The notes beneath the pieces were generated by a model that saw only the letters and a program-made list of their open reading frames with translations, ran no database searches and had not been told where the DNA came from. Shown here one piece after another: positions 47,531 through 62,349 of a DNA stretch of 64,000 nucleotides. This stretch comes from Blastocatellia bacterium (GTDB lineage: Bacteria; Acidobacteriota; Blastocatellia; Chloracidobacteriales; JADJPF01): NCBI GenBank assembly GCA_025057015.1, contig JANWYG010000022.1, positions 62,001 to 126,000 on the forward strand. Reading direction: 5' to 3'. Within the stretch, counting starts at the first letter, position 1, and each line of letters starts with the position of its first letter. Made by a program: the position numbers and the translations under genes.

Positions 47531-48085
47531 ATGAATCCCGTAGCTAAAGAAACCAAACCACGAATGGAAGCTACTATAGAAGATTTCAAAAGAAAACTTG
47601 CCTCAATCCGTACCGGGCGAGCTTCGGTAAGCCTTCTGGATAATATAGTAGTCGATTACTATAATACCCCTACTCCTTTAAACCAGCTGGCAACTATCGG
47701 AGCGCCAGAAGCTCAGCTGCTAACCGTACAGCCTTGGGATCCGTCTATTCTTGGTGCTATAGAAAAGGCCATACTTGCCTCAGATCTGGGCATCACTCCC
47801 TCTAATGACGGTAGGATAATACGCATACCGATCCCGCCACTTAATCAAGAACGCAGAAAGCAACTGGCTAAGGTTGTACGCGATATAGCGGAAGAACACC
47901 GTACTGCTATACGTAACCTTCGCAGAGACGCAAATGATAAGATTAAAAAGCAACTAAAGGAAAAACAAATAACCGAGGATGATGAGAAAAGAGCTCTAGA
48001 TGAAATCCAAAAACTTACCGATCAGTATATCGAAAAAATAAACGATCTTGCAAAAGCAAAAGAAAATGAGATTATGACAGTCTAG
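47531..48085 (+). CDS. frr: Ribosome recycling factor
   Basis: 184 residues, the family length. [14 protein letters not shown] at the N-terminus and the C-terminal helix bundle with [21 protein letters not shown] identify it. With EF-G it splits post-termination ribosomes. GGAAGG lies upstream of ATG 47531. Last gene of the translation cluster; about 240 bp of non-coding sequence follow. Confidence 0.96.
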
Positions 48086-48327: not shown

Positions 48328-48516
48328 ATGAGAAAAAAGGAAGTATTTGTTGGACATAAGTACAAAGCAAAAGTCAGTGGCAAAGCTACGACGGTGTTAA
48401 TCACTGCTGAATCGCGGCTGGGAGGATGGAATGCTATAAATCTTGCTACCGGGAGAAATATAAGAATCAAGTCGGCAGCAAGGCTAACCCCTTGCGAAGA
48501 GAGCGCAAATGCTTAG
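48328..48516 (+). CDS. Small conserved hypothetical protein (62 aa)
   Basis: A short basic protein. The pattern [37 protein letters not shown] looks like a single small beta-barrel domain that I recall from Planctomycetes and phage-related proteins, with no assigned function. GAGGAGG lies about 12 bp before the ATG. It is the last coding feature before the degenerate repeat array, but nothing links it to that array except position. Confidence 0.6.
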
Positions 48517-49093
48517 CGTAAGATTAACGGGCTAGTCGATTTCTCGGGAAGTCCTTGTGGGCAGTGTCCTCACAGAAAAACCTTAGTCGAGCTGTAAGTC
48601 GATAGGCTGGAAATTGACCGATGGTGTGGCAAAAATCTCAAGCTCTTTGGCAAGTGAAGGGCTGTTGTTTCTTTACACGTGAGGTAAGCTTTTTGTCGGC
48701 GGTTGCGTCGTTTTAATATGGCTGTTTCTCTTCACAAGTGAGGAATAAGCATGTGAGACTGCTTGTGTCGCCGATGTCGAGGAGCTGTTTCTTCGAACGT
48801 GGGTAAGCTCTCGTTGCACCAGCACTGGTAATCAGTGAGCTGTTGTTTCTTCATACCTGAGGAATAGGCCACTGAATACTCCTCAAATGCAACACAAATC
48901 CGTGTTTCTTCACACGTGAGGAATAGGCAGCTTTGCTCATATACTCTTGCACTGATAGTTGTTTCTCCCAAAGATGAGAGAATGAGCGCAAGTGTTTGTT
49001 TAGCTGTCGTATTTCCTCACGGGTGGGGATGGTGCAACACGCGCGGATCTTCGATGAGCAATGGCGGCCGTATTTCCTCACGGGTGGAATGGT

Positions 49094-49143
49094 GCCTCAC
49101 CTTCTAGGTGAGGCCTGGATTGAAAATTGAAACTGGATTGAAA
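49094..49143. repeat. Hairpin element with GGATTGAAAC tail, copy 1
   Basis: GCCTCACCT and AGGTGAGGC (49094-49102, 49106-49114) form a perfect 9-bp hairpin around TCT. It is followed by CTGGATTGAAAATTGAAAC and then a second GGATTGAAAC. An ATTGAAAC end is typical of many Cas6-processed CRISPR repeats. It interrupts the degenerate array and recurs at 52367. Confidence 0.65.
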
Positions 49144-49215
49144 CAAGGTTGGGCCGCACAGGTACATCAAACTACCACCTGTACAGATTACTGTCTGCCT
49201 GCACGCAGGTAGAGT

Positions 49216-49304
49216 GACGTGGCTGCGCGCGGATGGTCCGCGGGTATAGCAATTCGTTGTGGTGTGACGCTGAAACGACGTGGCTGCGCGCGGATGGTCC
49301 GCGG
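49216..49304. repeat. 28-bp exact direct repeat inside the array
   Basis: The same 28 bases, beginning GACGTGGCTGCGCGCGGATG, occur at 49216-49243 and 49277-49304, 61 bp apart. They occupy two consecutive spacer-like positions, so this looks like a duplicated unit whose flanking repeats have since diverged or been rearranged. Confidence 0.8.
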
Positions 49305-49846
49305 CCGCGCTCCTTACTGCTCGCACAGGGGTAGAGTGACGGAGATATCCAGTGCTCGGCTCCTTCAGCAAACCTTACCGTCCGCACGCAGATAGAGTGA
49401 CGATTTTCGGCGGTCGAAGGAATCACAGAAGAGTCTGTCCCTGCTAGGAGGATAGGGTGACGCAGTAGAGACTAGCCGGCCAATGAAAGTAGTTATTCTC
49501 GCTGTCTGTGTGCAGGTGAGTGATGACATGCTCGTCACGGCACTTTTGTAGGCAGTCCTGGTCAGTTGTCCGCAGGTTGGGTAAACAACAGGCTTGCTAG
49601 AAGTCTCAAAAGTTAGTTCCTACGCAGGTAAAGGTGGTAAAACGGGTGAAGTGTTTCCGGTATCTAGACGATCACTCTTTGCAAACGGATAGGAAGACAT
49701 CGATATACTAGTGATATGCAGTCAGTCCTTGCTCAGCAGGGGGGAATGACTTTTCGTGACGGCGATTGGCAAATAAGGAGAGTCGCTCCTTGCTCAGGAG
49801 AAATAACTGCTTGGCCGACTAGTTTTGGATTTATCAAATACCCAAG

Positions 49847-51934
49847 TCAGTCTTTGCTCAACTGGGGCAACTGTTGATTTTCTGTGCTGCCAACTAATCT
49901 CGGCCTAGGCGATTGCAAGTATATGCCACCTGAGAACGAACCTAAAATTAGACGTCCGTTTTTAGACAAAATAGTCGTGATCCTATCGGAAGGAAGATCC
50001 TTGTCTATGCGGCTAAAAGACTCCCCTTTGTTATCCGAAACATATACTCCACCGCTGCGAAAATCGCCTACCGCTATCTTGGCGGGATCGCTGTCAAAAT
50101 AAACGGCAATAGGTTCACCGTAGGGGATACCTTTGCCGCGTCGTTGCCAGCTTTGCCCGCCGTCTCTAGAAAGATAACAGCCTTTTTGTGTGCCCACTAT
50201 CACGAGCTGTGGATCGTGAGGGCTTACTGCAACTAATTGCACCACAGGTAGACCTTCTTCTATGCCGTCGAGCCGTTGCCAGCTTTTACCATCGTCATCT
50301 GTACGATATAACCCCTCAGCAGTGCCAGCATAGATCTGCATCGGACGGCCGGAGGCTACCGACAACACTTTACCGTCGTAGTTTGCTATTTTCATACGTA
50401 CAGGTTTTCCTGAGGAACTGCTCTGCGAGAGCTTAAACAGTCCTGACCAACTCGCGATCAAGAGAGCAGGCATCTTGGTCTCAGCCGATTCACGATAGTA
50501 GCTAAGCCCGGTTACTCGGTCGCTAATGTGACCACTGGTAGGAGGTACACTAGTTTTGAGCGCTACCTTTTTAGCCGTCAGTTTAGGCACAAGATTTGCC
50601 CCTAGCTTGCTCCAACTATGGCCAGCGTCGGTAGATCTGAAAAGACCTGTGTTCGTGCCGGCATATATTACTTTTCCATCAGGCGATTGAATCAGAGAGT
50701 AAATGTCTTGTGCTTCTAGCCCTCGACCGATCCTTTGCCAAGTGTGTCCTCCATCGTCGCTGCAGTATAGTCCGCTGTCAAAACCGTTAAACAGTGTCGC
50801 AGCATAGATTCTGTCTGGATGTAGCTTGTCTTCCATGACTACTGACACGTACCTGTTGACGAACCCGCTGTTGGATGGCTTGAAGGTGTTACCTTCATCT
50901 GTGCTGAGCATTACACCACCATATTTTGTCCCTATAACGATGCGTGTAGGCATTTTCGAGTGGATGGCAATAGCATTAACTACTGTGCGTAGAGAAGTTA
51001 CGAGCCGCCACGTGCTTCCTCGGTTAGTGCTCTTCCACAACCCTTCTGTAGTGCCGGAATAGATAACCTCTTTCTTTACAGGGTCTGGATAAATCACGTG
51101 TGTTCTGCGGCTGGTAAAAGGTATACCCTGGAACTTGGTCCAAGTAGACGCTCCGTCGGTACTGCGATAGATGCCGCTACAAGCGCTCAGTAGCAATGAG
51201 TTTCTATCTTCAGAGTCTATGACAATGCTGAATATATCCGAGTCATCTATTAGTTGTAGCCGTTTGTCGCTTGGGTGCCCCTTGACTAGGAACCAACTGT
51301 TGCCACCATCGGTCGTCTTCCACGGCAAGTGCTCTGTTCCTATGTATATCACTTTGGGATCTACAGGGTCGATCGCTACGGAATGTAACCTCACTAAGTC
51401 AGGATGGCCTTCGGGAGTGATTCTGCGCCAAGTCTCACCGGCGTCGTCACTTTGGTAAGCTCCGTCTATTGCTACGGCTACGAGAATACGGCTGTCGCTT
51501 GGAGCTATTGCTACTGAGCGTAGCGAGTGTCCAGAAATTCCGGTTAACTCCCTCCAAGTAATCCCCCGATCTGTACTCTTATACATAGTGCCCTGATGAT
51601 CATCGGCTATATACCAGAGAGGCACATAGATAGTGTTCGGATCAGTTGCGTCTATGACTATCTTGTCTACGCTGTAGCCAGGCCGACTAAACGAGCGTAG
51701 TCGTTGCCAACTGACCGCACCGTCGGTGGAGAGGTAGATCTGCCCGTCATTCGTGCCTAGATAATACCTATCTGGGTCCATAGGGTCGACTGCGAGAGAG
51801 CGCACATCCCCGCCATAAGGGCCTACTGTAATGAAACTGAAGTCGCCAGCTAACACACTGCAGCAAAACGTCACTATCAGAATCACCAACCGAAACATAG
51901 CTTTCCTCCTTGCCCTCATGAGAAGAGTATACAA
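49847..51934 (-). CDS. Secreted BNR/Asp-box (sortilin/VPS10-like) beta-propeller protein
   Basis: 695 residues. A signal peptide near the N-terminus ends at SVLAGDFSF. About a dozen Asp-box motifs (S-D-G-x-x-W type, such as STDGAVSW, SDDAGETW, TTDGGNSW, SDDGGHTW, SRDGGQSW) repeat every 40-60 residues, predicting one or two multi-bladed propellers of the kind called VPS10/sortilin-like or photosystem-assembly-like. They act as binding or glycosidase scaffolds; no catalytic residues can be assigned. The last codons overlap a repeat unit of the degenerate array. It is divergent from the small gene at 51988. Confidence 0.85.
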   Translation of the reverse strand: MYTLLMRARRKAMFRLVILIVTFCCSVLAGDFSFITVGPYGGDVRSLAVDPMDPDRYYLGTNDGQIYLSTDGAVSWQRLRSFSRPGYSVDKIVIDATDPNTIYVPLWYIADDHQGTMYKSTDRGITWRELTGISGHSLRSVAIAPSDSRILVAVAIDGAYQSDDAGETWRRITPEGHPDLVRLHSVAIDPVDPKVIYIGTEHLPWKTTDGGNSWFLVKGHPSDKRLQLIDDSDIFSIVIDSEDRNSLLLSACSGIYRSTDGASTWTKFQGIPFTSRRTHVIYPDPVKKEVIYSGTTEGLWKSTNRGSTWRLVTSLRTVVNAIAIHSKMPTRIVIGTKYGGVMLSTDEGNTFKPSNSGFVNRYVSVVMEDKLHPDRIYAATLFNGFDSGLYCSDDGGHTWQRIGRGLEAQDIYSLIQSPDGKVIYAGTNTGLFRSTDAGHSWSKLGANLVPKLTAKKVALKTSVPPTSGHISDRVTGLSYYRESAETKMPALLIASWSGLFKLSQSSSSGKPVRMKIANYDGKVLSVASGRPMQIYAGTAEGLYRTDDDGKSWQRLDGIEEGLPVVQLVAVSPHDPQLVIVGTQKGCYLSRDGGQSWQRRGKGIPYGEPIAVYFDSDPAKIAVGDFRSGGVYVSDNKGESFSRIDKDLPSDRITTILSKNGRLILGSFSGGIYLQSPRPRLVGSTENQQLPQLSKD

Positions 51935-53855: not shown

Positions 53856-55094
53856 CTATTTAAGCTGGTTGAACTGTAATTTGATCCAGCCGAGAGGATA
53901 CGCTTTAGTGTCACTTATCATTATTAGCTTACGTGACTTAGGATACTCAAAGTCAAGGTATCTATCTGCTAGTTTAAGAGCACGGCGTGTTTCTGCAAAC
54001 CGCTTGCTTTTCTCTTCTAAAAGCATACCAACAGTCATCTTGTGCCAGCCAGAGCCATAGCCTATAGAGAGGAAGCAAGTATTTTTATCGGCTTTCTGAA
54101 TGTCTTTCTTTAGTTCTTCATAGAACTTTAGGATACTTTTCAGTTCTACATTATCTGGATTATCTGGCTTATTCTGGATCCTACTAAAATAGCGTGATTC
54201 CCATTCGCATACTTTTTGAGAAAAATCATTTACGGCTTTGCAGAGAGCCTCAAGAGTAAATTTCTTCTGAGACTCTTTCCATCCGAGAGCTTTAGAAGCA
54301 ATATCATTTTTCAGCAGTTCGTCTTGAAAGAAGAGCGTTCCTTCATACTTTCTTTTAATTGCTATGGCTTCGCAAAATATCCAATAGTTTTTCCATTTAG
54401 CTCCCGCCATTTGGTCAGAGCTTTTGACGCCTGCACTCAAGACACGTATAGCTACGACGTAAAGTACTTCCTGGGCTAACTTTGCCTCTGTATCGCTTAG
54501 TTGCAGTACGCGAAAAAGATCATAGTTTGCTTGCCGTTCTTTTCCTTGAAAGATGTCTTGTATATATCTGCTAGCTTCTTCAGGATTTCTTGAGGCTGAT
54601 TCTTCTATTTTCCTAAGCAAGCTCTCATCGACATTAGCATATGCCCAGGCTGTCCTAAGTGCACCTTTGATAGATGTTGCAGGGATGTAGACTTTGTAGT
54701 CCGGCGTTTTAGTTGCGAGACGTACTTCTATAGCTCTATTTGAATTTGACTGATGACTAAGCTGGTATTTCAGCTTATCTAGGCCAAACTTACCGTAGTT
54801 GTTTTCTTTCTCTGGTCGGTAGGTTTTGTATTTTAAAACTTCGTCATCTTTGTCTATCTCGATTTTTAACAACTCATCTAAGGTGGTAGTTGATATTTTA
54901 TTTGGTTGCAAGTTCTTCAACTGTCTGCTGAAATGATCTACTTCTCGGGGATACTTCGAGAACACCCGATCGAGTTCCGGAACAAACATCTGCCTAGCAT
55001 CTTTTGAGATTTGAAATTCGATCGGTAGCATGGTTTCGCCTGTGCCTATGTGGATCGGTGAAAGCGTCTCTACGATATACTGATACCGCGGCAT
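53856..55094 (-). CDS. csm5: Type III-A CRISPR RAMP protein Csm5
   Basis: 412 residues. RAMP fold: the N-terminal TLSPIHIGTGE strand-loop and the Gly-rich YIPATSIKGALRTAWAY segment are typical of Csm5. It caps the crRNA 3' end of the Csm complex and helps recruit maturation nucleases. It overlaps csm4 by one base (TAATG). Last gene of the operon. The C-terminal part (about 250-400) is helical and charged, and more variable, as in the family. Confidence 0.9.
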   Translation of the reverse strand: MPRYQYIVETLSPIHIGTGETMLPIEFQISKDARQMFVPELDRVFSKYPREVDHFSRQLKNLQPNKISTTTLDELLKIEIDKDDEVLKYKTYRPEKENNYGKFGLDKLKYQLSHQSNSNRAIEVRLATKTPDYKVYIPATSIKGALRTAWAYANVDESLLRKIEESASRNPEEASRYIQDIFQGKERQANYDLFRVLQLSDTEAKLAQEVLYVVAIRVLSAGVKSSDQMAGAKWKNYWIFCEAIAIKRKYEGTLFFQDELLKNDIASKALGWKESQKKFTLEALCKAVNDFSQKVCEWESRYFSRIQNKPDNPDNVELKSILKFYEELKKDIQKADKNTCFLSIGYGSGWHKMTVGMLLEEKSKRFAETRRALKLADRYLDFEYPKSRKLIMISDTKAYPLGWIKLQFNQLK

Positions 55095-56167
55095 TACAGA
55101 GCCTCCCTCATAGCTACGGTGTATGCTAGCCCGTAGATTCTAACCTTATAGTCTAGGCTAGGCCTTTGTTTGCTCTCCTTGTATAGTGCCCCGTAGACTT
55201 TCCTACCGTAATCGGGAAAAGAGCTACCTTCTTTGAAAGAGAGCAGCGTAGGCTTCCATACTTGAGCAACTTCTGATAAGTAGGAAGTTTCCAGAAATCC
55301 TTTCCGTCTTTCTAGCTGTCCGTAAACCTCGCTGAGGCGACTTTTCAGTTCGCGTCTGTCAACTTCGTTAGGATGAAACAGCGAGAGAGCTACTCGCCGA
55401 GAACCATTTTGTGGCAAGCTGAGCGAGTTCTTTTCAAATGACACTTCGCAGTGCCCACGTCCTATCGTAGTGTCCCCTCCGATGCCTTTTTGACAGATGT
55501 AGAAGAGGGCGGATTTCAACATCTGGTCATATTTTTCTGTTGCGTCAATTAGTAAAAACAATCCCGTGCGGATGTTTAGCTTGGGTATGCAGGTCGTGGA
55601 AACCACCTTTTGATAGAACAATTGGCCGTGTTCGCTAGGTGCTGTGGAAAAGCTGAGTCGGTTGAGGGTATTGCGGGCAATCTCGCCGTTGTACAACAGA
55701 GACTTTATAGTCCTAACTTGCTCGTACTCTTCTTTGCTTAAAAGGGCACCTGCATGATCGAAGTAGTCCTTGCCTAATTTGTCGATTATCTGCTGCTCGG
55801 TTAGCTCACCGGCTAGCAGCTTCTCGAATAGTACTCTGGAAAGTAGGCTCGTCTTTTTGAACTTTTTGACTTTGGCGTACTTTTGTTCGTCATCTATGTT
55901 TAGCTTTGGAGGAGGCAACATAGGTCGAGGAAAGAACAGTACTCTACAGTTTTTGTCCTCGAAGAAGACGTTGAGTGAGCTGATAAGGAAAGGCGGCGTA
56001 GTGTCTTTTTCTATCGAGTGGTCGAACTCTTCTAGTAAGGATTCTAGTTCTTTCCTGCCATAGAGCAAACGTATTGTCCAAGCCAAAGCTCCGAAAAGTG
56101 TATCGGAGCGAGGGATATTGTTTGAAAACGGCGCTTGTGGATAAAGATAGGCTATTATCCTTAGCAT
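55094..56167 (-). CDS. csm4: Type III-A CRISPR RAMP protein Csm4
   Basis: 357 residues. The Csm4 start LYPQAPFSNNIPRSDTLFGAL and the Gly-rich GIGGDTTIGRGHCE loop are present. Csm4 binds the crRNA 5' tag and contacts Cas10. It overlaps csm3 by 7 bp. Length is a little above the 290-310 residues common for Csm4, with the extra sequence mainly at the C-terminus. Confidence 0.9.
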   Translation of the reverse strand: MLRIIAYLYPQAPFSNNIPRSDTLFGALAWTIRLLYGRKELESLLEEFDHSIEKDTTPPFLISSLNVFFEDKNCRVLFFPRPMLPPPKLNIDDEQKYAKVKKFKKTSLLSRVLFEKLLAGELTEQQIIDKLGKDYFDHAGALLSKEEYEQVRTIKSLLYNGEIARNTLNRLSFSTAPSEHGQLFYQKVVSTTCIPKLNIRTGLFLLIDATEKYDQMLKSALFYICQKGIGGDTTIGRGHCEVSFEKNSLSLPQNGSRRVALSLFHPNEVDRRELKSRLSEVYGQLERRKGFLETSYLSEVAQVWKPTLLSFKEGSSFPDYGRKVYGALYKESKQRPSLDYKVRIYGLAYTVAMREAL

Positions 56168-56973
56168 TTCGACTTGTCCTTATATACCTCTTCCTGCTTT
56201 AGAAAAAGCTCCTTTATGCCTTCTATCTTTTCTGTGTTGAACTTGGAGAGCGGATGTAGTTCGTCGGGCTTCTTTTTTTCCTTGGTTATTCCCTTTCGGT
56301 AATCGTTTAGCGTGTACACTATGGGCTCACCTAGATGGAAAGCTATTTGCCCGTAGCCTCTAGAGCCACTCCCTCCGAGCGCCGAATGTTCAAGGAGCCG
56401 CATAGCCATAAAGACTTCTGGAATCAGGTCTATATCTTTCTTAGAAATACTTTCTACTTCGTAGAGATTGAACAGTATTTCGAAGTCAAATTTGGAGCCT
56501 GCGGGCACCCTTTCCATATGACGTGGGCCTGAAGGAGGCTTAGAAGTAAGTCGGTTAATGCTTACTTCTGTCTTTATCTCGACTCGCGGAAGGCCTTGTT
56601 CAGCTTCGAGCTTTTCCAGCTTTTCACGAGTAGATTTATCTGCTTTTGCGTCTCTTACTATAAGTCTAGTAGGGCCGGCCTTGCGATCTTTTTCGGCTGG
56701 AGCACCGAAAAGTCGTGAGATGACGTCATTTACATCTCCTGATGAATACACCTGTCCGTCAGATGTGACTTTTCCTTCGGCCCACTCCATCAACGATCGC
56801 ATCTTGCCTTTGAGAGAAGAGCCAGGAATGTACGGAAAGCCATCTATAGGATCGCGAATTACAGGATTGTCTATACCCCCTATTTCATAGCCGCCTTCTG
56901 TACCTCCGATGTGTAGCCCCGTAATACACTCGATCTTGCCGTATATAATCAAAGTTCCTATTGTTTGATTCAT
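56161..56973 (-). CDS. csm3: Type III-A CRISPR RAMP protein Csm3 (target RNA endonuclease)
   Basis: 270 residues. The GGTEGGYEIGGIDNPVIRDP region contains the conserved catalytic Asp (Asp35), and PYIPGSSLKGKMRSLMEWA is the Csm3 signature. A Gly-rich HSALGGSGSRGYGQI loop closes the fold. Csm3 forms the backbone that cuts target RNA every 6 nt. The Asp is intact, so slicing is expected. ATG overlaps the csm2 stop by 4 bp (ATGA). Confidence 0.93.
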   Translation of the reverse strand: MNQTIGTLIIYGKIECITGLHIGGTEGGYEIGGIDNPVIRDPIDGFPYIPGSSLKGKMRSLMEWAEGKVTSDGQVYSSGDVNDVISRLFGAPAEKDRKAGPTRLIVRDAKADKSTREKLEKLEAEQGLPRVEIKTEVSINRLTSKPPSGPRHMERVPAGSKFDFEILFNLYEVESISKKDIDLIPEVFMAMRLLEHSALGGSGSRGYGQIAFHLGEPIVYTLNDYRKGITKEKKKPDELHPLSKFNTEKIEGIKELFLKQEEVYKDKSKC

Positions 56974-57449
56974 CGTGAAGGCTCCCTGTCTTTTTTAGAG
57001 TAATAGTAGAAGTAGGCGTACAGTGCCTCGAAAAAGGTGGCAAACTCAGTTAGAAGCTTCTTGACGTCATTGTTTAGGATTAGGTCGATTGAATGATCGA
57101 ACAAATCTTTGAAGTCTTTGTTTATAGTTTCGCGCCCCACAGCATAGGTTACCTGTGCCTGAAGTATCCTCAGTTTGACCTTGAGCTGTTGTTCTACACT
57201 AGGCTCTGATGAGCTGGCTCTCACTTGGGCAACTTTGATGAGATTATAGAATTTTCTGACTTGGGTACGGGTAGTTTCTACTCCGCCTTTAGTGGAACCG
57301 GATTGGCTCAGACTTTTGCCTAAATCTTCGGCTATTCTTAGCACTTCGTCGTGCACAAAGCTCTTTTGGTTGGATGAGGACTTTTTGAAACTGTTGATTG
57401 TATCTGTTGACCCTTTATCGCCGCCTGAGCGGGGTGGATTATTTGGCAT
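56970..57449 (-). CDS. csm2: Type III-A CRISPR small subunit Csm2
   Basis: 159 residues. A Ser/Lys-rich N-terminus (about 1-55) is followed by the helical Csm2 core with TTRTQVRKFYNLI and the QLKVKLRILQAQVTYAVGR segment. Csm2 lines the target groove of the complex. It is somewhat longer than the usual 120-150 residues because of the N-terminal extension. It starts 1 bp after the cas10 stop, with AAGGAG upstream. Confidence 0.9.
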   Translation of the reverse strand: MPNNPPRSGGDKGSTDTINSFKKSSSNQKSFVHDEVLRIAEDLGKSLSQSGSTKGGVETTRTQVRKFYNLIKVAQVRASSSEPSVEQQLKVKLRILQAQVTYAVGRETINKDFKDLFDHSIDLILNNDVKKLLTEFATFFEALYAYFYYYSKKDREPSR

Positions 57450-57450
57450 C

Positions 57451-59919
57451 TTAGTTCTCCTTTCCTCTAGTCTTTAGAGCTACATAACCGACTAGTACGG
57501 GGATATACTTTCTATGGTTATAAATTTCTTGCTGCAAAGTTGCTCTAAGATTTGTATCTTCTACGTTTCTCGTTAAGCTGTACAGAAACCTAGGTATCCA
57601 AATTAAATCTTCCCTGTCCTTTTTTGAAAGATCCCTTTTAGGATCGATATGGTTGCGGTATAGAGAAAGCACGTGGTACAAGAACTTGCGCGAGAGATCG
57701 CCGCTTTCTATGGCTTTTATCATTTCGTCTCCGAGCGAGAGTATCTCTTCTAAGCGCTTCCAATTTACTTTCTGCTCTAGAAAAGCAAGTGAATTCTTAT
57801 CCATGTCTGTATCATCTATCCTGCTACGCTTAGCGATTTCGTCCAGTGCTTGGCCTGCGTCTTCGGCTGAACGAGCTACGGGATACTTGCCTTTACATAG
57901 AGCTATGCCGCCGCTAATGTGTAGATCTGGATTATATGCGCAGAATTTGCCAAAGTTCTTGTTTATATCGCACGCAAGCTGTAATACTTCGTTCCACGCA
58001 CCCAAGACAAACAGGTCATCGCCTCCGGCATAGGTAGTGTATAGATTTTTGCCTGCTATAAGCGTATTGAGATGGCCACTAAAGAACCAATCGAACATTC
58101 TAGAGACGTTAGCAACTTTAGAGAGCGAACTTTCTTGCTGACTGAGGCCTTTTGCAAAGATTAGGCCGAGATTATCTACGTCCATTCTTAGTACACCGAG
58201 AAAATTTGCTCCTTCGGACTTTTTGGCTAGTTCATCGAATTCTGCTATATGTCCTTTTTCTGTCTTTACTTCACCGGCGAACAGATCGAAACCGTAGGCT
58301 ACATCTGGCTCGATGTGCTGAGGAAGAAAGTCTATGTACGTATTGCGGGCATTGGCAAAAGTGAGGCAAAGTTCGGCTCCTTGGAAGGCTTGTTTATTTT
58401 TGGAAAGCAGCCAGCAACGGTTAAAATCCGGGAACTCTATCAGCGCGTGTTCTGTGATGCTTTTGTAGTGGTGAGCTTCTTGTTCGTTGCGAGGAATGCG
58501 GGCTACGTCTTTACTTAGTTTGTTCCAATCGGGGCTGCGTCGCAGTTGAATCGTTTTTGCTTCAACTAAAACTCTACCTATGCGGTCGAAGTGTAAGCTT
58601 TGTAGGCTGCGAATCCGTTCATCGTCGTTATATTCTTGAGATAGGCTTCTTTCCTGTTCGTCGATATCTCTGCCTGTATCACAGCAGATATCGACTCCCA
58701 TTTTGAGCACTAAGCGGTTTTCCCAGGCGCTGTCTAAGGGTTCATCGGATTCAAATAGAGTATCGAACTGTTGCAATTTGAGCGTGGCGACCTTACGACT
58801 TAGCTCTTCTTTGACGCTGGAGAAATTTTTGAGTTGGTCTTTTGTGACTTCAAGATCGGCTATGATAACTCCTAACGCACCGCGCCATTCTTTCCAAATC
58901 CAACTTTTGACGCGACGGCGCAACTGGTCGAGCTTGGTTTTAACTTTGTTAGTGTTTGGAGCAATCACTAGGAAGTGGCCACCTGTGGCCCAGAGCGTGT
59001 TGACGGACTCGAGTTCAAGCTCTGACACGGTGTAATCGGCTAGAGTTTTCAGCAGGAGGTTTAGGTAAAACGATCTCCCGCGTAGCCTACGCGCTGCTCC
59101 AGCGTATACTTCTTGGCCGTTAAACGCAGGATTATAGATGAAGTTTTGTATACCTGACAGATCACTTTCAATCAGAAGGAAGCCACCGTTTTCATCCTTT
59201 TCTTGGTGTAACTCGTATAAACATACGGCTAGTGCTGCTGTGACGCGGCTGTGATCGTAGAGCGAGATGCTCGGATAGTCTACGTATGTAGCGCTTGGAA
59301 CAGACCAAGTATATTTGTGTAGGAGATGGACTAGTGAGTCAAAGTAGGAGCGGAAAGATGCAGCTGGCAGCAGGTCATGTTCTTTTATGAACTTATCCCA
59401 GAGCTTTTTGTAGTCTTCTACTAGCGAGATATTTTTGTTTTCTATCTTGCTTGGAAAGATTTCTTCTGTAATAGACAGAGGGCGAAGAAGGTAGAAATAT
59501 TCTGAAGGTTTGCGCTGGGCGCGGGGTTTTAGACAGATGCGTTCGCCGATAGCTTCGAGTCTATCGAAGGTGGGTTGGCCTTTGGGATCGTCTGGTGGGC
59601 GTTTTTCTCTGTCAAACAAGGCTGCGAGGTGATCAGCCGTTTGGACTATTCTTGCGAAAGTTTCTTTTCTTGGATCATCTTTTAGGTATTCTGGGTTGTG
59701 GTGAAACTTTGCATAAAGGCCTGCTTCGGCAAATTCGGCATTTTTCTTTTTGACATGTTTAGTGAAGAACTCCCCGCTCCAGACGGCGTGTAGGCCATGC
59801 TTACCTACTTCGCCTTTCTCGAATTCGCTGTAGAGATGTTTATTTTCACCTGTACGCTGCCAGAACTTACCTATGTCGTGTAGCAATGCTCCGAGTGCTA
59901 CTAAGTCACGCTCCTTCAT
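57451..59919 (-). CDS. cas10: Type III-A CRISPR large subunit Cas10/Csm1 with intact HD and GGDD
   Basis: 822 residues. The N-terminal HD domain shows LLHDIGKFWQR (His14-Asp15), the site for ssDNA cleavage. Two Palm domains follow; the second has YAGGDDLFVLG with GGDD at 632-635, the site that makes cyclic oligoadenylate from ATP on target RNA binding. The SDLSGIQNFIY segment is typical of Csm1. Both active sites look intact. The ATG follows the cas6 stop directly. With GGDD intact, a cOA-activated effector is expected somewhere in the genome; no recognised csm6 or csx1 is in the window. Confidence 0.94.
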   Translation of the reverse strand: MKERDLVALGALLHDIGKFWQRTGENKHLYSEFEKGEVGKHGLHAVWSGEFFTKHVKKKNAEFAEAGLYAKFHHNPEYLKDDPRKETFARIVQTADHLAALFDREKRPPDDPKGQPTFDRLEAIGERICLKPRAQRKPSEYFYLLRPLSITEEIFPSKIENKNISLVEDYKKLWDKFIKEHDLLPAASFRSYFDSLVHLLHKYTWSVPSATYVDYPSISLYDHSRVTAALAVCLYELHQEKDENGGFLLIESDLSGIQNFIYNPAFNGQEVYAGAARRLRGRSFYLNLLLKTLADYTVSELELESVNTLWATGGHFLVIAPNTNKVKTKLDQLRRRVKSWIWKEWRGALGVIIADLEVTKDQLKNFSSVKEELSRKVATLKLQQFDTLFESDEPLDSAWENRLVLKMGVDICCDTGRDIDEQERSLSQEYNDDERIRSLQSLHFDRIGRVLVEAKTIQLRRSPDWNKLSKDVARIPRNEQEAHHYKSITEHALIEFPDFNRCWLLSKNKQAFQGAELCLTFANARNTYIDFLPQHIEPDVAYGFDLFAGEVKTEKGHIAEFDELAKKSEGANFLGVLRMDVDNLGLIFAKGLSQQESSLSKVANVSRMFDWFFSGHLNTLIAGKNLYTTYAGGDDLFVLGAWNEVLQLACDINKNFGKFCAYNPDLHISGGIALCKGKYPVARSAEDAGQALDEIAKRSRIDDTDMDKNSLAFLEQKVNWKRLEEILSLGDEMIKAIESGDLSRKFLYHVLSLYRNHIDPKRDLSKKDREDLIWIPRFLYSLTRNVEDTNLRATLQQEIYNHRKYIPVLVGYVALKTRGKEN

Positions 59920-60891
59920 CTATACCTCGATTCTGAATTCTCCCAGTCCGAAGCTTGTGCTTGCTCCGATGTTGAGAATTTCGCCTGCAGCAAGTAGCGG
60001 TAAGAACTTTGCTAGGTTGCCTCTGTATCTCACGGTACCTACGAGGCCACCTATTTTAAGCTTCGTCTTTTGCCGCGAGGAATATCTTTCTAAGTCTATC
60101 CAGCGTAGAGAAGAGCTTAAGGTTGCTACTTTCGAAGCCTGTTCGAGTAGATCCTTGAAGTCCAGTTCTAGTGCTTCTTGGCCATGTAGTATCATAAGCT
60201 GCGATAGCCGCCGCAAGATGTTACGCATCAGTAGTTGAAAGTCTATATGGGTTTGTAAGTCGCCGTTTGAGCGAATGCGTACCGGAGAGATGAATCTGAC
60301 TTTGAGGCTATCTTCGGCGAGATGTAAGTTTTCTAGGCGTTTCTCGACCAATTCTGACAGAGGAACAGGCTTGAGGTTGCTCGAAAGAGTTCCTGTTTCG
60401 GCTGAAAATATCTCCCTACCTTCTCTGTCCACTACATGAGCCAGCTCGAACTTTCCTCGATGAACGCCTAATCCCTGCCTTGCCATCTTTTGGATGGTGT
60501 AGATGACAAATGGTAAAGAATATACGGCTTTGCCCATCAGGAGTAGTCGGAAATAAAGTACATCTCCTTGATGGTAGATCTGCCTTTTGCTGTTCCAATT
60601 GTAGTCGGGCTCTATGGGTAGGCTAAGTACGAAGGGATGCGGAGCGCGTGCTTGCCCCTGGAGCTGAATTATGTTTTCTGGGACGGGAGTCTCAAAGATA
60701 TACGGATAGATGCATCGAGTTTTAACTATGCATCTCTGGCATTCTCCGTGATTTACTATACAAACTACGCTTTTAAGAGCTCGGCCAAAAGCTCCTCTTA
60801 AAGTAGAGCCTAGGAAAGCAGGTAGCTCTGCTCTTTCGCAGGATCTGATTTTTATCTGGCTCTGTAGAAGCGGTAAAGATAGTCGTTGCAT
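59920..60891 (-). CDS. cas6: Cas6 family CRISPR RNA endoribonuclease with N-terminal Cys cluster
   Basis: 323 residues. RAMP-like ferredoxin folds with a C-terminal Gly-rich GASTSFGLGEFRIEV, the Cas6 signature. Between the strands is a four-cysteine cluster (Cys44, Cys51, Cys54, Cys60), a zinc-finger-like insertion seen in a subset of Cas6 proteins. Cas6 cuts precursor crRNA within repeats to leave an 8-nt tag, often ATTGAAAC. The catalytic His cannot be assigned with confidence. First gene of the cas6-cas10-csm2-3-4-5 operon, and it is preceded by a promoter with an inverted repeat. Confidence 0.88.
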   Translation of the reverse strand: MQRLSLPLLQSQIKIRSCERAELPAFLGSTLRGAFGRALKSVVCIVNHGECQRCIVKTRCIYPYIFETPVPENIIQLQGQARAPHPFVLSLPIEPDYNWNSKRQIYHQGDVLYFRLLLMGKAVYSLPFVIYTIQKMARQGLGVHRGKFELAHVVDREGREIFSAETGTLSSNLKPVPLSELVEKRLENLHLAEDSLKVRFISPVRIRSNGDLQTHIDFQLLMRNILRRLSQLMILHGQEALELDFKDLLEQASKVATLSSSLRWIDLERYSSRQKTKLKIGGLVGTVRYRGNLAKFLPLLAAGEILNIGASTSFGLGEFRIEV

Positions 60892-61431: not shown

Positions 61432-62349
61432 TTAAACTTGTTCATCTTCAGCGTTTGGGTAAAGCATTTTCTTTGGAGCAGGTAGTGCTGCTTCCAATCT
61501 CTTTGCGAAGTTATCTATCCTTACCACGGTCATAGAAAAGATGCTGCCTAGTTCTTCTGCTAAGTTGTCATTAATGTTTGGGTCGGTGAGGATTAGAAAG
61601 GTGTGAGCTTTGTCTAACTTAAGCAGTTTTGAGACTCTGTTGTACTTGTCTATGTGTCTGCGGTAGTCTCCAGTCTTAGATTCCAGCCAGAAAACCTCGT
61701 CCTCGGCTTCGAAAAGCATGTCTAGCTCGAAGTCTTCTCCGCTGGGGAGCATGATCTGGGGGTTGCAAAGGTAGGAGACGTTGAGATCCCTAGCTTGAGA
61801 CAGAGAAAGTACTACGGTTTTTATATATCTTTCTAGCCATTTTCCAGCAAAGAAATTGAGAGCTTTAGGAGATGTACTTGGCACTGCATAGAGGGTAAAC
61901 AAAGGTGAGTTTTTATAGTTATATTCCGTCAAAAAAGCTATATTATATAGTGTAACGCAGAGATTAGTTACGTCGGATATTGCCTGAGGTTTATAGTTTT
62001 TTAGATTTAACGTAAAGCTGCTACCTTGATTCATGCAAGACTTTATGTTGTCTAGGAGTTCAGCTATAGAGCCAAACCTTTCTCCCATAAAAGTTGCAAT
62101 GCGGTCAAGTGTCGAGTCTCCTTCTTGTTCGGGCGGGATAGTTTTGATCTGAAATCCTCGAGCTTCGAGAAATCGAACTATTTTGCAAGTATCATTGTTA
62201 GCGGGCTGGGGCAAGTCATGCTCTATTTTCTTTTTTGTTTGCACAGCCAACTTCGGTTGAGGTGGTCTTCCGCCTAGAGCTTCCGCTATGCTTTCCAAGG
62301 CGATTGCTATACGTTCTAATAGGGTCACTATGTCAGGTCTATTCATCAT
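61432..62349 (-). CDS. Uncharacterised PD-(D/E)XK nuclease-like protein
   Basis: 305 residues. The C-terminal half fits a PD-(D/E)XK nuclease: Glu173 in GKWLERYIKTVV, then Asp210 in GEDFELDMLF, then Glu223 and Lys225 in FWLESKTGDY, followed by a helix and FLILTD. The N-terminal half (about 50-165) is a separate domain with LDRIATFMGERFGSIAELLDN, SFTLNLKN and CVTLYNIAFLTEYNY; I recall this pattern from cyanobacterial hypothetical proteins, with no known function. No CARF motif was seen. It overlaps the upstream secreted-protein gene by 11 bp and faces csp, 540 bp from cas6. A role as a CRISPR-linked effector is only speculative. Confidence 0.65.
   Translation of the reverse strand: MMNRPDIVTLLERIAIALESIAEALGGRPPQPKLAVQTKKKIEHDLPQPANNDTCKIVRFLEARGFQIKTIPPEQEGDSTLDRIATFMGERFGSIAELLDNIKSCMNQGSSFTLNLKNYKPQAISDVTNLCVTLYNIAFLTEYNYKNSPLFTLYAVPSTSPKALNFFAGKWLERYIKTVVLSLSQARDLNVSYLCNPQIMLPSGEDFELDMLFEAEDEVFWLESKTGDYRRHIDKYNRVSKLLKLDKAHTFLILTDPNINDNLAEELGSIFSMTVVRIDNFAKRLEAALPAPKKMLYPNAEDEQV

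Follow-up and report, generated by a model that had tools for sequence, protein, structure and literature searches.

A strongly diverged CRISPR-like array in a Blastocatellia bacterium, most likely a fossil of the genome's type I-E system

We analyzed a 64,000-nucleotide stretch (the window) of a Blastocatellia bacterium whose genome comprises 3.33 Mb in 23 contigs. Within it, the intergenic stretch 48612–49875 is flanked by frr (ending at 48085, + strand), which we take to encode ribosome recycling factor, and by a BNR/sortilin-like propeller gene (49847–51934, − strand), whose 3′ end is overlapped by the last unit of a drifted repeat array. A small ORF of 62 aa without a Pfam match (48328–48516) lies immediately 5′ of the array. 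No cas genes adjoin the array, and the csm genes of a type III-A operon lie 4 kb away. A search of the window for cas1 found none, this operon lacking both cas1 and cas2. Next to the operon, 61432–62349 encodes a protein with a PADLOC CARF–PDDEXK match, which is probably a cyclic-oligoadenylate-activated nuclease. The features of the locus are as follows.

48589–48611, + strand: putative type I-E leader-end remnant, GAGCTGTAAGTC plus about 11–12 nt, recognized by a motif match to the start of the genome's own I-E array
48612–48640, + strand: putative unit 0 (ATTGACC...), heavily decayed and leader-proximal, placed by its position and by its first 7 nt against the own I-E array start
48662–48986, + strand: subfamily A, six units (48662, 48721, 48782, 48840, 48899, 48956), pairwise identity 61–86%
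49006–49095, + strand: subfamily A′, GTATTTCCTCACGGGTGGGGATGGTGC plus a second unit without part of the 3′ arm, 90% mutual identity
49090–49131, + strand: type I-C repeat relic in the long interval, GCCTCACCTTCTAGGTGAGGCCTGGATTGAAAATTGAA, of which 49094–49125 is identical to the clean I-C repeat at 31/32 positions
49143–49171, + strand: possible unit within the 95-nt interval, placed by spacing only
49191–49528, + strand: subfamily B, units at 49191, 49252 (very diverged), 49313, 49374, 49434 and 49501, form CTGTCTGCCTGCACGCAGGTAGAGTGACG, 58–79% identity excluding 49252
49216–49304, + strand: exact 28-nt duplication (49216–49243 equals 49277–49304), from a repeat search
49560–49700, + strand: the three most decayed units (49560, 49615, 49672), 55–68% identical to their nearest 5′-side neighbours
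49721–49875, + strand: subfamily C, units at 49721, 49782 and 49846, form CAGTCCTTGCTCAGCAGGGG-GAATGAC, 70–73% mutual identity
52366–52424, + strand: second solitary, degenerate I-C relic, GTTGGCCTCACCTCCTAGGTGAAGCCTGGATT followed by TTTGAAAATTGAAT, found as a BLAST match of the 49096 interval and read directly
53856–60891, − strand: type III-A operon cas6-csm1(cas10)-csm2-csm3-csm4-csm5, from PADLOC matches

A sequence-only reading of the window had proposed some 20 strongly diverged CRISPR-like repeats starting at 48667, and our statistics confirm them. The array consists of ~20 units, probably 22, of 28–31 nt, running from ~48612 to 49875; it thus probably begins one unit earlier than proposed, at 48612, and a weak unit is possible near 49143. 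We used a dynamic programme free to pick any chain of 26-nt windows spaced 44–72 nt apart. The best chain contained 22 units and scored 56, compared with a mean of 7.2 and a maximum of 13 in 60 first-order Markov resamplings, and the array region was the top-scoring tile of the window. A scan for further diverged arrays covered 0.93 of the 3.33 Mb of the genome, where higher scores occurred only at clean CRISPR arrays, low-complexity or tandem repeats and masked N; no second copy of the drifted array was found in these 0.93 Mb. Because loci of high G+C raise the chain score, we set aside a null built on other genomes. Other repeats were noticed in this genome: dispersed low-complexity arrays of CACAGAGGACACAAAG-like units and their reverse complements occupy several intergenic regions (L168 60–420 and 5460–8160, L199 6550–6980, L162 11460–11800), and a 60-bp near-perfect tandem repeat stands at two contig ends, C18 and C23 (L171 1–280, L189 1–280), probably as one coding repeat that broke the assembly.

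The commonest start-to-start spacing is 57–61 nt, with a mode of 61 and many units shortened by indels; between hand-registered units the spacings are 59, 61, 58, 59, 57, 50, 61, 124, 61, 61, 61, 60, 67, 59, 55, 57, 49, 61 and 64. Intervals measure 19–38 nt, plus one of 95. Among hand-registered units, neighbours are 69% identical, distant pairs about 57–58% and shuffled units 52%. Identity between intervals is at the shuffled level (52% vs 51%), which upholds the claim of unique intervals except that two adjacent ones share the exact 28-nt stretch. This duplication comprises a repeat end, GACG, and 24 nt of interval, and either it arose long after the array, as its appearance suggests, or the assembly produced it artificially. 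The unit between its two copies, 49252, is the most diverged of subfamily B. Regular spacing and this one internal duplication are what ordinary, diverged tandem duplication of a 60-bp unit would produce, an origin we regard as very improbable because the repeats are alike while the intervals are no more so than shuffled sequence; like repeats and unlike intervals at regular spacing are the architecture of a CRISPR, not of tandem duplication. A functional array has near-identical repeats and a constant spacer length. Here, repeats differ by 30–40% and spacers range over 19–38 nt, which marks the array as a relic.

Similarity is greatest between neighbours and declines with distance between units, as had been proposed (Mantel r 0.42, p 0.0002, hand-registered units). 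Because hand-set boundaries might favour neighbours, we retested this gradient with automatically chained units, applying the identical selection to resampled sequence. At lag 1, identity was 0.650 vs 0.576 ± 0.010 for the null; at lags 2–4, it was 0.590 vs 0.540 ± 0.012 (null maximum 0.562); and at lags 8–12, it had fallen to the null (0.538 vs 0.535). A Mantel test of the automatic units restricted to lag ≥2 was not significant (p 0.12). The gradient is real and survives unsupervised choice of units. Distant units do lie near noise, as they would under chance or low-complexity similarity, but with lag-1 and lag 2–4 identities above every null and a chain score of 56 against a resampled maximum of 13, that explanation is scarcely credible. 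Identical repeats that decayed independently would leave no gradient. Propagation of mutations to later repeats during duplication is a described trait of CRISPR growth (PMC4869251) and would yield one; local duplication or conversion would do so too. Our literature search for repeat divergence or compensation along CRISPR arrays found no papers on the subject.

The sequence-only reading had described a dyad and end sequences kept throughout. About half to two thirds of the units show a clear dyad, which is broken in the others; subfamily A is best preserved as GTGTTTCTTCACACGTGAGGAATAGGC, its best units carrying the stem TTCTTCA/TGAGGAA. End sequences are kept within subfamilies (GGC/AGC; GGTGC; GTGACG; ATGAC) and not across the array; in subfamily B, which has a period of 61, the 3′ end GTGACG is common to four units. 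Units fold better than shuffles (combined z −3.2, compared with −0.8 for intervals). In hand-read stems, 105 of 133 stem cells pair, compared with 79 after the 3′ arms had been dealt out at random to the units (0/5000 deals reach the observed value). The hand-chosen register favours pairing in this overall figure but bears less on the between-versus-within contrast for subfamilies. Within subfamilies, the pairing excess was not significant (A plus A′, p 0.44; B, 0.21; C with the decayed units, 0.09). Aligning the units with MAFFT revealed no structure, and the covariance model derived from that alignment was weak. Covariation between but not within subfamilies suggests an old constraint followed by decay: we offer the reading that the hairpin was maintained during subfamily divergence and that the constraint had gone by the time of the later changes. 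The same pattern would arise from two different source arrays.

The sequence-only reading had left a choice between a long-decaying array and a structured repeat under different selection. Under the latter, the hairpins would still be transcribed and used, either as crRNAs in trans via Cas6e or the III-A Cas6 or in another RNA role. The folding of the units, the cross-subfamily pairing and the retention of ~1.2 kb of intergenic DNA speak for such selection; against it stand changes within subfamilies that ignore pairing, several broken stems, the variation in spacer length, the lack of any match above cut-offs in an Rfam search of the array, and the absence of an array downstream of the BNR orthologue in two related genomes (G002 and G003). 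We consider continuing selection improbable. More improbable still is the specific version in which the array is transcribed and Cas6e or the III-A Cas6 acts in trans to process its sequence-drifted but shape-conserved hairpins, making it a working array in which repeat structure replaces repeat identity. Of the two options, long decay is the one supported: it fits the CRISPR architecture, the indels in repeats and spacers, the broken stems, the decayed first repeat and the failure of the searches to find a second copy (in 0.93 Mb) or relatives. The variable spacer lengths, along with the stems and the first unit just mentioned, argue for a dead array.

The searches yielded no evidence of present function, whether among phage, plasmid and viral matches, in Rfam or in the two BNR neighbourhoods. 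The search of the array intervals against phages and plasmids by BLAST that the sequence-only reading had proposed gave no match, and spacers matching mobile DNA, as a I-E array would be expected to hold, were not found; three intervals compared with viral contigs by exact words likewise had no match. Against 0.93 Mb of the own genome, the intervals matched through the I-C relic interval only, plus 14–16-nt chance matches. When array DNA was compared with 58 relatives, only the own-genome I-C repeats matched. Scanned with the BNR protein, the genome collection yielded no relative above ~57% identity, and frr orthologues were located in 16 genomes; in a third genome (G001), the contig ends too soon for the BNR neighbourhood to be compared.

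The genome encodes a type I-E operon on contig C23, not adjacent to the drifted array, in which Cas3, Cse1, Cas6e and Cas1e were recognized by model match and the remaining genes lie in order. Its short array (C23:96.8–97.0 kb; repeat ATTGTCCCCACGCGCGTGGGGGTGAACCG, period 61) stands beside cas2e and consists of two intact repeats followed by a degenerate one, whereas the drifted array has no adjoining cas gene. The two share a 61-nt period, a 29-nt repeat, a hairpin and a 7-nt 3′ tail, together with modest same-strand similarity and a putative leader-end motif. The modal unit spacing of 61 is that of I-E geometry (28–29-nt repeat and 32–33-nt spacer, period ~61). Summed over all units on the same strand, the I-E repeat of G003, a same-family genome (ATTGTCCCCACACACGTGGGGGTGAACCG), scored z 8.0 and the own I-E repeat z 6.9, the best of sixteen queries. 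The remaining queries fell between z −1.1 and 6.4, with the E. coli I-E repeat at the top; non-I-E repeats reached 5.8, and the reverse complements of the own and G003 I-E repeats 4.4 and 3.5.

Taken group by group, I-E similarity falls to z 0.9–3.3, which some control repeats equal even when reversed. Individual units share 38–69% with the own I-E repeat, and the highest local match sits mid-array, at 49006, rather than at either end. Unit 0 scores z 1.9 to the own I-E repeat and 0.6 to that of G003, and the possible unit at 49143 is at noise level. A fall of I-E similarity along the array was not significant (Spearman p 0.2–0.3). In the own I-E array, the leader end GAGCCGTAAGTC is followed by 14 nt and the repeat start ATTGTCC; the counterpart at 48589 reads GAGCTGTAAGTC, about 11–12 nt, ATTGACC. 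The motif GAGCYGTAAGTC-N(9–17)-ATTGNCC has two sites in 0.93 Mb searched on both strands, 48589 and the own I-E array start, although it was defined post hoc, after the match had been seen, and unrestricted local alignment reaches only about the 4% level. The 61-nt period, the same-strand ranking over all units and the leader motif together make I-E the best assignment. With moderate confidence, and from sequence comparison, we regard the drifted array as a degenerate type I-E array, its subtype not being proven.

The array had also been read as lying beside a type III-A operon. That operon is present, but the units are unlike its array, and their geometry and similarity point to I-E. A type III-A array, with a 36–37-nt repeat ending in a GAAAC-like sequence, a period of ~70 and a place beside csm, was rejected on these features. 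TIGR (Tas-associated) guide arrays, which combine short paired guides, box C/D-like repeats and tas genes, presumably differ from the drifted array in geometry. The genome has three cas1 loci, with best models I-C, I-E and I-D. One is an orphan (C3:91.9–92.9 kb; L056 11910–12903) split into two open frames of 62 and 293 aa. It comes closest to the type I-D/I-C Cas1 models, and neither another cas gene nor an array was seen around it.

The genome further carries a type I-C operon, whose repeat, GTTGGCCTCACCCTCTAGGTGAGGCCTGGATTGAAAC, forms clean arrays. These arrays share with the drifted array a dyad with CCTCAC/GTGAGG and the relic copy inside it; they differ in their 37-nt repeat, ~72-nt period and ATTGAAAC end, none of which the units show. 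The flank of the relic at 49094 is similar to the distal end of the I-C array on C23, and the TTTGAAAATTGAAT flank of the second relic also occurs after the relic at 49118 and at that same distal end. A third solitary I-C copy (C23:181840; L011 5838–5874) lies beside a protein-kinase-like gene without a surrounding array. The I-C relics have diverged far less than the units around them, and the 97%-identical one inside the array gives the impression of being much younger than its neighbours; the low divergence indicates that the stretch kept receiving or rearranging CRISPR sequence.

The 95-nt interval also bears on a fossil array of other or mixed origin, in which A/A′ and B/C arrays were joined near 49096–49190, or in which the subtype is not I-E. 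The abrupt change of subfamily near this interval, which holds the I-C relic as well, favours a join, and subfamily B scores z 2.0–2.3 against I-F repeats compared with 2.4 against I-E. However, the 61-nt period is identical on either side of the join, the family's I-E repeats rank first over all units, and none of the three cas1 loci is I-F. Such an origin is less likely, though it is the most serious competitor.

We favour, with a probability of about 0.72, the view that these units are a fossil CRISPR array. It would most likely have been a second array serving the genome's type I-E system, and its leader would lie at the low-coordinate end. During its active life, the first repeat would have been copied to add new units at the leader, and the repeat sequence would have changed slowly, so that neighbouring units share changes, as the gradient suggests. 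The hairpin may have been kept by paired changes, consistent with the covariation between subfamilies in hand-chosen stems. Once acquisition stopped, substitutions and indels would have accumulated in repeats and spacers regardless of pairing, the pattern seen within subfamilies. Repeats too different to recombine would have let many units escape deletion. The I-C relics in and beside the array suggest that this stretch near the III-A operon may be a site of repeated CRISPR gain and loss. Standing against the fossil I-E reading are the near-noise distant units, the weak per-group scores, the mid-array position of the unit with the best local I-E match and the lack of a significant fall in similarity along the array, the post hoc leader motif, the seemingly far younger 28-nt duplication and 97%-identical I-C relic, and the survival of ~20 units, unexpected because Escherichia/Salmonella relics are reduced to few copies.

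In a survey of Escherichia and Salmonella, CRISPRs were reported to be down to few copies where the cas system had left only relics (PMC2886076). Shared with those arrays are decayed old-end repeats and persistence beyond their system; the present array differs in its ~20 units and its deeper divergence, which includes the leader-proximal unit. CRISPR-like loci without a functional system in Helicobacter pylori include one inside the VlpC protein gene (PMC6330956), whereas the drifted array is intergenic and a complete I-E operon exists elsewhere in its genome. The array is unusual mainly for the number of its surviving units and its visible repeat drift. Standard CRISPR finders trim away repeats whose identity to the representative one falls under roughly two thirds, the default cut-off of CRISPRDetect (PMC4869251), and fossils of such depth are therefore likely missed; the lifetime of arrays may be far greater than one would judge from catalogues. 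If the fossil reading is true, the array would be a stepwise record of repeat change with the hairpin kept, otherwise seen mainly across species, and it would open to testing the idea that arrays endure when their repeats have diverged too far for recombination.
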